A stretch of 64,000 bases of DNA from assembly GCA_024645045.1 (NCBI GenBank), contig JAHEGO010000001.1:1-64000 (forward strand). Reading direction: 5' to 3'. A program made the translations under genes and the position numbers. Shown here in pieces: positions 7,274 to 11,036 of this stretch; position 1 is the first letter of the stretch; each line of letters starts with the position of its first letter. Source of the DNA: Sphingobacteriaceae bacterium (GTDB lineage: Bacteria > Bacteroidota > Bacteroidia > Sphingobacteriales > Sphingobacteriaceae). A model generated the notes under the pieces. The model saw only the letters and a list, made by a program, of their open reading frames with translations. It was not told where the DNA came from and ran no database searches.

Positions 7274-7345
7274 GGCGCCGTAGTTCAACGGATAGAATAG
7301 ATGTTTCCTAAACATTTGATACAGGTTCGATTCCTGTCGGAGCCA
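7274..7345 (+). tRNA. tRNA-Arg (anticodon CCT)
   Basis: 72-nt cloverleaf: GGCGCCG TA GTTC-AACGGATA-GAAT A GATGT-TTCCTAA-ACATT TGAT ACAGG-TTCGATT-CCTGT CGGAGCC A. Position 4-69 is a G.A mismatch. Confidence 0.9.
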
Positions 7346-7473
7346 CTTCTTTAAAAATCAATTACTTACCTTTTATTTTCTTGAAGTTTTTACTACAGGT
7401 TTGCAGTGAACTTTGCAGTGTTTTGCTTTAGTAGTGGTTTTGGTCGGGAACTTGGAAGTAGGTGGCAGATGTG
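7329..7473 (+). repeat. Direct repeat copy 1 (tRNA-Arg 3' end plus downstream sequence)
   Basis: gtcggagccacttctttaaaaat identical (23 bp) to 8915-8937; similarity continues through ttcttgaagttt to ggtggcagatgtg. Confidence 0.85.
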
Positions 7474-7588
7474 GGGGGTAGAGAATATAAAAACACAATT
7501 TATTTATAATTTCGTGTTATATATATTTACTTATCAAACCATTAAAAATGAAATTCAAACCAAAATCAATTGGTTTAATTCTTGACCC

Positions 7589-8899
7589 ATGAAAAAAATA
7601 TTACTTCTAACAATTATCGGTTTAGCAGGTTTGTTTCAAGCGACAAAAGCACAAACCCTTTACTTCCCTCCACTAAGTACTACGGCTACTTGGGATACCA
7701 TTTCTCCTGCTTCTTTAGGTTGGTGCACAAATGAAATTGATGCTTTATATGATTATTTGCAGCAACAAGATACTAAAGGTTTTATTGTATTAAAAGACGG
7801 CAAAATAGTTTTAGAAAAATACTTCGGAACATTTACGAAGGATAGTTTATGGTATTGGGCATCCGCGGGTAAGACAATTACTTCCTTTTTAGTAGGTAAA
7901 GCACAGGAAGAAAATTATATATCAATTACAGATACTTCATCAACATACTTAGGTAAAGGCTGGACGAATTGCACGATAACCCAAGAAAACAAAATCAAAA
8001 TCAGAAATCAATTAACAATGACTTCGGGCCTTGACGATGGTGTGCCTGACAATCATTGCATCATTGACACTTGTTTAAACTATTTAGCTGACGAAGGAAC
8101 TCGTTGGGCTTATCACAATGCCCCATACACTCTTTTAGAAAAAGTATTAACAACTGCAACTGGCATGCCCATTAATTCTTACACACAAACAGAACTAAAA
8201 AGAAAAACTGGCATGACTGGTGCTTGGGCTTATGTTGATTACGACAATGTATTCTTTAGTAAAGTTCGAAGTATGGCTCGTTTCGGTTTATTAATGCAAA
8301 ATAACTGCATCTGGAATAACGACACTTTACTTTACGATACTAGCTATGTTCATCAAATGACAAACACTTCTCAAAGCCTCAATCTATCTTATGGCTATTT
8401 ATGGTGGCTGAATGGGAAATCTTCCTATATGCTTCCAACCTCTCAGATAGTTTTTCCAGGTTCTTATGCTCCTGCTGCCCCGAGCGATATGTTTGCGGGT
8501 CTTGGAAAAAACGGACAGATTGTAAGTATTTCAAAAAGATTAGGATTAGTCGTAGTTAGAATGGGTAATCAGGCAACAAGCGGTGAAGTTCCAACACAAT
8601 TATGTAATACTATTTGGGAAAAACTAAATTCCGTAATGTGCAACTTAACATCAATTAATGAAACTTTACCGAATACAGCAACAGTTACCATTTTTCCAAA
8701 TCCAGCAAATTCCGAAATAAATATTGTCTTACCTTCAAACGACAATACTCAAATTGAAATTACAAATACTATGGGGCAATTAATTATTAAAGACCAGAAC
8801 AAAAATAAAATTGACATTTCAAACTTGAAAAATGGATTATACTTTATTTCAGTAATACATGGCCAAAAAACTTACACACAAAAAATAATTAAGCAATAA
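7589..8899 (+). CDS. Serine hydrolase (class C beta-lactamase-like) with T9SS C-terminal sorting domain
   Basis: SAGKTITSFLVG (SxxK), YHNAPYTLLEKV (YxN region), C-terminal IFPNPANSEINI...GQLIIKDQ...LKNGLYFISV...YTQKIIKQ. Confidence 0.9.
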   Translation: MKKILLLTIIGLAGLFQATKAQTLYFPPLSTTATWDTISPASLGWCTNEIDALYDYLQQQDTKGFIVLKDGKIVLEKYFGTFTKDSLWYWASAGKTITSFLVGKAQEENYISITDTSSTYLGKGWTNCTITQENKIKIRNQLTMTSGLDDGVPDNHCIIDTCLNYLADEGTRWAYHNAPYTLLEKVLTTATGMPINSYTQTELKRKTGMTGAWAYVDYDNVFFSKVRSMARFGLLMQNNCIWNNDTLLYDTSYVHQMTNTSQSLNLSYGYLWWLNGKSSYMLPTSQIVFPGSYAPAAPSDMFAGLGKNGQIVSISKRLGLVVVRMGNQATSGEVPTQLCNTIWEKLNSVMCNLTSINETLPNTATVTIFPNPANSEINIVLPSNDNTQIEITNTMGQLIIKDQNKNKIDISNLKNGLYFISVIHGQKTYTQKIIKQ

Positions 8900-8907
8900 T
8901 GATAAGC

Positions 8908-9061
8908 GATTCTGGTCGGAGCCACTTCTTTAAAAATAAACTACTTACCTATTATTTTCTTGAAGTTTATGTTGGGGTATTGCAATAAACCTTGCAGTTG
9001 TTGCTATAGTGGTGGTTTTGGTCGCGAACCTGGGTGTATTTGGAGGCAGGTGGCAGATGTG
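8908..9061 (+). repeat. Direct repeat copy 2 (contains tRNA-Arg 3'-end fragment)
   Basis: cgattctggtcggagccacttctttaaaaat...ttcttgaagttt...ggtggcagatgtg parallels 7329-7473. Confidence 0.85.
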
Positions 9062-9211
9062 ATAAAATAAAATCCTATATTTAATACTAAATTTAGGATA
9101 TAAATAAGACAATATGAGAAGCATAATTACATTGTTATTTATTCTAACATTCACAATGGATGAGTCTGCTCAACAATTAAAATAGTTATACAAGACATTA
9201 AGCTTAATAGA

Positions 9212-9418
9212 TTGAATTATAAATTATATGATTTACTCTGCAAAGAAACTATATCAGGCGACATACAAAACAATCAAACAGAATTAGATTTAAACAACCT
9301 TATGCCTGCGGTTTACTTTATAAAAGTATTTCGTTACAATTCATCTCTCAAGGATTTTAAAATTAAAAAAAATAATTATGCGCAGAATTTTAACCATCAT
9401 TGCAATTTTTTTTGTTAA
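9212..9418 (+). pseudogene. Remnant of a T9SS C-terminal sorting domain
   Basis: YKLYDLLCKETISGDIQNNQTELDLNNLMPAVYFIKVFRYNSSLKDFKIKKN matches a sorting domain without a passenger domain. Confidence 0.6.
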
Positions 9419-9872
9419 TATGATTGCAGTGGCACAGGCTTCTTCTAAGATTAGCTATCAAGCAGTCATTCGTTCAAACAATGCCTTGGTAGTTTCAACA
9501 CAAATAGGAATGAGAGTAAGTATTATCAAAGATTCTGCAACTGGTATAGTTGTTTACCAAGAAACTTATAACCCCCAACCAACAACTAACGCCAATGGTT
9601 TAGTAAGTGTTGAAATTGGTGGTGGCAATCCAAGTGTTGGTTTATTTGAAAATATTGATTGGTTGGCGGCTACCTATTTTGTTAAAATAGAAACAGATGT
9701 AACAGGTGGAACAAATTATACGAATGTTGGTGTTAATCAGTTGTTAAGAAAAGGAGACGATACACCCAAAAAGAAAAATGTAGGTCGTATTATATTTTTA
9801 TTTTTTAAGGCATATTTTATTATTATGGCTGTAGGATGGGGTATTGCCACAATAGGAAATGCAAATAGATAA
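9378..9872 (+). pseudogene. Truncated/chimeric secreted tail-fibre-like or collagen-like N-terminal domain fused to a hydrophobic tail
   Basis: KISYQAVIRSNNALVVSTQIGMRVSIIKDSATGIVVYQETYNPQPTTNANGLVSVEIGGG... is a common Bacteroidota N-terminal domain; the expected VPYALYA-type continuation after NQLL is replaced by RKGDDTPKKKNVGRIIFLFFKAYFIIMAVGWG. Confidence 0.55.
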
Positions 9873-9976
9873 TTATTTATAATTAAATTTTTTACTCTAT
9901 TTTCTATTCCAATATTTTACTCAGGAAAATATAAGTCTAACTATTACCTGCCTAACCAATTTGGAGACCCTTGGGC

Positions 9977-10025
9977 AATCTTTAAAAATCAATCAATATC
10001 TTTTTTTCTTGAAGTTTTACTACAA
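9977..10025 (+). repeat. Direct repeat copy 3 (degenerate, lacks tRNA fragment)
   Basis: tctttaaaaatcaatcaatatctttttttcttgaagttttactaca vs copy 1 tctttaaaaatcaattacttaccttttattttcttgaagtttttactaca. Confidence 0.7.
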
Positions 10026-10307: not shown

Positions 10308-11036
10308 TTAAATCTTAGCAATCTTACGCCAAGGAAGCGTAATAAAATAAATCAAGACGATAGGTATGATGATTGGAACAAGATGGGTGTAAACCAATAA
10401 CATAAAAATTGCTCCAAATATTAGCCCAATTAAAGCGTACCAATATATTTTTTTGTTTGTAGGAATACCATTAATTGATCGTTCTATAAAACCTATTAAT
10501 TTCATTATTCCTAATAGCAACAAAATAAAAAAAGCACCTATTATTATCATACCAAAAACAATTGGGCCAATTAAAGCAAGCATTAAAAAAATGATTGCAA
10601 TTGAAAACAATAAAGTTATTGAAACGTTTTTTTTGTATTTAGGCTCAGACTTTTTCTCTAAGGCGCGTTTACTTTTCTTTTTGATAAAAGTGCTTTCAGT
10701 TTTTTTATTTTCAATTGAAATATCAATCACGGGCGCAGCTAATATTATTTTTGAAGATTTTAAAAGGAAGGTTTCTGTTTCTGCTGTTGAAGCAAAAACC
10801 TGTTCCGCTTCTTGTTCGGCGTTCATATCCGAATACACTTCAACAGGCTCAAGCGTTTGTTTTTCTACTAAAAGACCAGCGCATAAAGCACATCTATCAA
10901 ATTTACCACTATGTACTAAATGTTCATTCTGATTTACAATGCAATTATTTAAAATAGCATTTTTATTAATACTACATGATGAGAAAGTAAAAGCCAGAAA
11001 TATTAGTAACAAATGAATGTTGTTCGGTTTTCTCAT
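10308..11036 (-). CDS. Hypothetical lipoprotein-leader membrane protein with several C-terminal TM helices
   Basis: MRKPNNIHLLLIFLAFTFSSCS lipobox; CALC motif; hydrophobic segments SITLLFSIAIIFLMLALIGPIVFGMIIIGAFFILLLLGI and IYWYALIGLIFGAIFMLLV. Confidence 0.75.
   Translation of the reverse strand: MRKPNNIHLLLIFLAFTFSSCSINKNAILNNCIVNQNEHLVHSGKFDRCALCAGLLVEKQTLEPVEVYSDMNAEQEAEQVFASTAETETFLLKSSKIILAAPVIDISIENKKTESTFIKKKSKRALEKKSEPKYKKNVSITLLFSIAIIFLMLALIGPIVFGMIIIGAFFILLLLGIMKLIGFIERSINGIPTNKKIYWYALIGLIFGAIFMLLVYTHLVPIIIPIVLIYFITLPWRKIAKI

Follow-up and report, generated by a model that had tools for sequence, protein, structure and literature searches.

Behind the tRNA-Arg(CCT) gene of this Sphingobacteriaceae genome lies a row of direct repeats that include the 3' end of the tRNA, and the question that the locus raises is how such a row came into being. 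The tRNA gene occupies positions 7274-7346 on the plus strand (ARAGORN) of the window, by which we mean the whole stretch of 64,000 nucleotides analysed here. An initial annotation read the layout as successive site-specific integrations at a tRNA gene, now decaying without an integrase. This is the best-supported reading, because related genomes show copies that start at the anticodon stem, conserved cassette ends with a paired motif, and transfer of a hydrolase gene between species. The genome under study (G000) has an assembly of 1.83 Mb in 70 contigs and is 95.6% complete. Like all genomes compared with it, it is a fragmented MAG, and contig breaks are frequent at the repeats.

A BLAST search with positions 7329-7500 against the whole assembly returned exactly three places, all of them behind tRNA-Arg(CCT): the query itself (copy 1; E 7.5e-86), positions 8908-9061 (copy 2; 79% identity, E 5.8e-32) and positions 9979-10024 (copy 3; 86% identity, E 2.8e-7). 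The repeat is therefore real and local, all three copies in the genome lying at this one locus rather than being dispersed. A left-end profile, R1, built from 16 sequences that comprise the 3' part of tRNA-Arg and the adjoining left arm, scored the copies at 146 bits (over 7298-7476), 127 bits and 20 bits (E 5e-6), respectively. This pattern behind the tRNA gene is not due to chance. The identical 23-bp core noticed earlier at 7336 and 8915 was found exactly there, within longer similarity. Behind the tRNA gene, the left arm (P' arm) of the first cassette extends over 7347-7476 on the plus strand as delimited by R1; it ends in AGGTGGCAGATGTGG and contains a paired TTGCAGT motif at 7401-7419. 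A search of the repeat region against Rfam found the tRNA only. The arm was also considered as a structured RNA, an idea that was rejected since it folds weakly (z -1.4).

Copy 2 (8907-9062, plus strand; BLAST and R1) consists of the T-arm and acceptor part of tRNA-Arg followed by the left arm. The initial annotation needs two corrections, one for copy 2 and one for the third copy. The T-arm of copy 2, TTCTGGTC, is the version found in the relatives, the genome's own tRNA having TTCCTGTC, and the 5' edge of the copy shows a TGATA microhomology with 8900-8905. The edge is a deletion scar rather than an integration boundary: with the anticodon part and the preceding right end lost, copy 2 starts only within the T-arm. 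The third copy (9976-10024, plus strand; R1 and BLAST) was described as tRNA-less and more diverged, and both searches recover it as such, but no more than 46 bp of left arm is left of it. No other copy is as weak, and the relatives have similar stretches at places without a tRNA. A profile of the right end gave no credible match in the window.

The intervals between the copies hold cargo, much of it damaged. Downstream of the first left arm, positions 7550-7585 (plus strand; comparison with relatives) retain the start, ~12 codons long, of a 'fibre' gene that is otherwise deleted and that begins MKFNPKSICLIF.. in the relatives, and this stub is joined through TTTAATTCTTG to the leader of a serine hydrolase gene. 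Leader and gene together form a horizontally exchanged block (7575-8906, plus strand) with 96-97% identity to G003, G004 and G005, three other species of the genus. In accordance with the initial annotation, the gene (7589-8899, plus strand) encodes a secreted serine hydrolase of the beta-lactamase/PBP fold (PF00144, 7.3e-23) with a T9SS sorting domain (PF18962, 1.4e-14). In G003 its end, ..aataatgataag, continues into a degenerate right end, whereas in G000 it jumps to CGATTCTGG via TGATA. The gene fragments reported for the second interval are likewise there: the decayed second cassette (9120-9872, plus strand; Pfam and comparison with relatives) comprises a signal-peptide stub, a T9SS tail fragment (Por_Secre_tail, 9212-9418) and a truncated secreted protein of 164 aa (9378-9872). 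No family could be assigned to the latter, and the cassette has no relative among the relatives' loci compared. A variable lipoprotein gene on the minus strand (10308-11036; comparison of array positions) is probably cargo as well, since members of its family stand first among the cassettes in G004 and G027 and last in G000. Thus, the array in the window is decayed, one cassette gene having been cut to its first codons, copy 2 having lost its 5' half and the second unit being fragmentary. Since fusions of right and left ends that delete the core recur in G001, G003 and G005, decay of these arrays is general.

Four other species of the genus (G001, G003, G004 and G005), as well as G027 from a sister genus, have homologous copies behind their own tRNA-Arg(CCT) genes. 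Across 301 genomes of the family, full-length matches to R1 are confined to the genus of G000 and to G027; outside these, the profile mainly matches the tRNA gene itself. In public genomes the left-end tail was found in Lake Erken and Loclat MAGs (two relatives) and in one more MAG contig, L052. Behind the tRNA, G005 has eight R1 copies or part-copies across 18 kb, G004 and G001 have three each and G003 has two; G004 holds additional copies on contigs elsewhere in its assembly. The units in these rows, which vary by species, measure 0.5-15 kb, mostly 0.5-3 kb. The relatives' intact copies run from (A)TAGA of the anticodon stem through the loop and the T-arm to the tRNA 3' end, beyond which follows a conserved non-coding left arm of ~130 bp ending in AGGTGGCAGATGTGGGAT. 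Six to seven intact copies share this start to within a few bases, and the 16 bases upstream of it match the tRNA at 31% of positions (59/192), which is near chance. The cassettes accordingly carry the 3' half of tRNA-Arg(CCT), from about 7297 in window coordinates, and comparison with the relatives places the inferred core site at the anticodon stem-loop, ATAGATGTTTCCTAAACATTTGA (7297-7319, plus strand). Just upstream of the boundary lies a right end of ~150 bp, 87-92% identical in G001, G004 and G005, which begins with a terminator hairpin (-20.9 kcal/mol, z -6); other sequences upstream of the boundary are unrelated to one another. Several units in the relatives keep both ends, including several intact single-gene units, while in the window the right ends are lost. 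Because copies within an array are 15-25% diverged, no recent integration event is seen.

In lambda-type integrases, arm-type sites flank a core. The cassettes offer a counterpart on both sides: the pattern TTGCAGTNNACNTTGCAGT, a paired TTGCAGT with one mismatch allowed, has 20 matches in seven genomes, every one inside a left or a right end, while the reversed pattern, used as a control, has none. The TTGCAGT sites are 10-12 bp apart and, to the left as to the right, ~100 bp away from the core. In their layout the cassette ends correspond to a lambda-type tyrosine-integrase attachment site whose predicted crossover lies in the anticodon loop, and in which the anticodon stem would be the core inverted repeat and the TTGCAGT pairs the putative arm-type sites.

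Some remnants depart from this form. A different type of left arm (ACAAGATTAATATGTTAATG..) stands behind some tRNA-Arg remnants (L058:2600-2840, L083:1490-1700 and L034:728-838), and in two remnants with this type of arm a palindrome, CCTGCCTGGCGGCAGACAGG, is inserted in the T-loop. Moreover, remnants occur at other loci behind tRNA-Asn and tRNA-Val, which a simple integration model leaves unexplained. At such sites (L023:6758-7171, L028:8407-8790, L027:9763-10170, L052, L058 and L083), a second conserved segment of ~150 bp, with its own terminator-like hairpin, lies between the tRNA-Asn or tRNA-Val gene and the tRNA-Arg(CCT) remnant. This second segment makes the tRNA-Asn gene next to pfkB a second hotspot, although the core there is that of tRNA-Arg.

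The layout of the locus is not shared by all relatives: the conserved neighbours, ppk1-ppx on one side and the SOUL gene on the other (Pfam), enclose cassettes that differ from species to species. The cargo includes the hydrolase, a fibre-like secreted protein, a T9SS beta-propeller protein, lipoproteins and defence genes, of which G005 has PD-Lambda-1 and G004 a type ISP restriction enzyme; in G002, two C5 methylases and an NgoFVII-like nuclease adjoin a tRNA-Arg remnant. The position of the hydrolase within the array also differs among species. At fourfold sites, the hydrolase genes of G003, G004 and G005 are 0.90-0.93 identical to that of G000, far above the flanking genes (ppk1 0.43-0.44, ppx 0.33-0.36, M13 peptidase 0.48-0.54, SOUL 0.53 and porin 0.42), and the block of high identity has sharp edges at 7575 and 8906. 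The hydrolase unit has thus moved between species long after their divergence. With respect to the cargo proteins themselves, a nearly identical T9SS tail (LNKGVYVIKIGEVAQRIVKM) is found on different proteins (L021:12801-14108, L023, L027, L031, L034 and L057), and the G005 hydrolase has this tail in place of the one shared by G000 and G003, which suggests that T9SS tails may be swapped between cargo proteins. In G004, just upstream of the gene for the type ISP restriction enzyme (L026:4977-5600), there are tandem units of ~100 bp with short palindromic GTACAT/ATGTAC motifs.

What moved the cassettes is not encoded with them. The statement that no integrase accompanies the repeats holds for the whole G000 assembly, where XerD is the sole tyrosine recombinase found and no resolvase-type serine recombinase is present. 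No integrase occurs in any array read, and in none of six genomes is a recombinase tied to the cassette ends. Besides XerC and XerD, the genus has two tyrosine recombinases, both in G005: an integrase of 403 aa, which is unlinked, and a truncated one of 154 aa. The 403-aa integrase was considered as the mover and set aside, as it has neither a tRNA nor a left- or right-end match nearby. Viral contigs gave no matches to the left-end tail, core or arm, and plasmid and phage records only short matches that cover the tRNA-Arg part; at the sensitivity used, the cassette ends are absent from the viral, phage and plasmid collections. Neither a circular form nor a viral or plasmid element with cassette ends was found. 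Given arrays without an integrase and collections without the ends, an integrase that acts in trans or has been lost is inferred. An empty-site allele was not recovered: in G002 a contig edge interrupts ppk1, and tRNA-Arg(CCT) has different neighbours in the further genera examined.

Taken together, the region from 7274 to about 10-12 kb is probably a decayed additive island, which arose as small, non-autonomous cassettes integrated one after another at a specific site in tRNA-Arg(CCT). An intact cassette consists of the tRNA 3' half as core, a left arm of ~130 bp, a single gene or a small number of genes, a terminator and a right arm of ~150 bp. As for the identity and source of the recombinase, the proposed enzyme is a lambda-type tyrosine integrase that an element absent from these genomes would provide in trans. 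This enzyme would bind the paired TTGCAGT sites in both arms of a circular cassette intermediate, crossover would take place in the anticodon loop, and the cassette's own 3' half would restore the tRNA. The presumed order of insertion is that each new cassette displaces earlier ones away from the tRNA. The array is later degraded by exchange among cassettes and by deletions at short homologies; in G000 a gene, a right end and the greater part of two att copies have been lost in this way.

A different origin, which we consider possible but rather doubtful, is that the units are ordinary decayed prophage or ICE remnants (CIMEs); each would then be the remainder of an autonomous element of its own whose integrase has disappeared, rather than a cassette built to be non-autonomous. 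Accretion of CIMEs has been described (PMC5704250), integrase-less islands stand among integrase-bearing ones at Dehalococcoides ssrA (PMC3146451), and a recombinase gene fragment is present in G005. However, no unit of the arrays read contains a recognisable phage, conjugation or integrase gene, and most units are only 0.5-3 kb, several being intact single-gene units with both ends conserved. Another explanation gives site-specific recombination a role only in the distant past and makes RecA-dependent exchange, for example after DNA uptake, through repeats, terminators and T9SS tails the main route of cargo. The hydrolase block does end sharply at short homologies, its C-terminal tail is swapped in G005, and coreless fusions of R2 and R1 recur, but such exchange produces neither the shared anticodon-stem boundary of the tRNA fragments nor the motif pairs that flank the core; we regard it as unlikely.

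It is still less probable, to the point of being a minor concern, that the repeat has a regulatory or structural role between genes, such as that of a leader or promoter, and that it was duplicated along with genes and once captured a tRNA end. Many array genes are indeed preceded, in the same orientation, by truncated left-arm tails (..AGGTGGCAGATGTGGGAT), yet the full copies hold the tRNA 3' half with a sharp start, the arm folds weakly, and copies are restricted to array sites and a few tRNA loci. Finally, if the end of the tRNA and the sequence flanking it had been duplicated in tandem on the spot, this would account for the adjacency of the direct repeats, but the contents between the repeats differ and are horizontally acquired, and the T-arm of copy 2 differs from that of the genome's own tRNA; this explanation is extremely improbable.

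We class the array as a variant of additive tRNA islands of the accretion type, with unusually small cassettes, conserved two-arm ends and no integrase in the units seen. Additive flexible islands at tRNA genes are reported for streamlined aquatic bacteria, namely Ca. Actinomarinales (PMC7771536) and, as fGI-2, Methylophilaceae (PMC10872708). As far as these accounts describe them, they resemble the present arrays in having small variable cassettes in a row behind a tRNA, tRNA 3' fragments, and cargo that differs among close relatives. The variation of cassette content at a fixed locus between conserved genes, characteristic of additive islands, is found here too. In the portions of these accounts considered here, only the tRNA fragment (20 bp of tRNA-Lys in Methylophilaceae) is described as repeated, whereas the tRNA-Arg(CCT) arrays have conserved ends of 130-150 bp that share a paired motif. 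The Dehalococcoides ssrA islands are similar in being tandem, separated by repeats of the RNA gene's 3' end and in some cases devoid of an integration module, but many of them encode a serine recombinase and their boundary lies in the tmRNA T-loop (PMC3146451), while no unit here has a recombinase and the boundary is at the anticodon stem. Streptococcal CIMEs, like several of the relatives' units, keep both ends (attL and attR) but have no integrase, and they too are stacked by accretion; they derive from ICEs or IMEs (PMC5704250), whereas no ICE relative of the arrays was seen. Tycheposons, too, are cargo elements that target tRNAs in small aquatic genomes, although, as described in PMC10872708, they measure 4-200 kb and carry a tyrosine recombinase, in contrast to these units of mostly 0.5-3 kb without one. 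Integrons share the row of exchangeable small gene cassettes, but the genus has no integron integrase (IntI), and the units appear to have their own terminator and a tRNA-based core. Of the classical marks of tRNA islands, displaced tRNA 3' ends with a common inner boundary are present, in the relatives' intact copies, and an integrase in the island is not. Repeated putative arm-type sites on both sides of the core, as in a lambda-type attP, are also present in the form of the TTGCAGT pairs.

The movers of additive tRNA islands in small aquatic genomes are mostly unknown, and the defined ends described here (core, two arms and a diagnostic motif) offer a bait with which to look for the missing recombinase. 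The array family also ties the island to the passage of genes for surface (T9SS) proteins and anti-phage functions from one species to another. As a tentative extension, plausible enough to mention although we would not count on it, the arrays may belong to a lineage-specific, integron-like system in freshwater Bacteroidota, in which self-contained transcription units, each made up of core, arm, gene, terminator and second arm and non-autonomous by design, are moved in trans by an external tyrosine integrase, tRNA-Arg(CCT) is the head of the array, and cassettes for secreted proteins and anti-phage functions circulate among species. If the cassettes are indeed non-autonomous by design, they would be a tRNA-based counterpart of integron cassettes.

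The tRNA itself may bear a trace of these events. Its acceptor stem has a G4.A69 mismatch in G000, G001, G003, G004 and G005 and G4.G69 in G027, whereas position 4/69 is paired in four other genomes of the family. This is only suggestive, and concerns a single position, but it would fit a tRNA whose 3' half is supplied by cassettes and has lost its coevolution with the 5' half.
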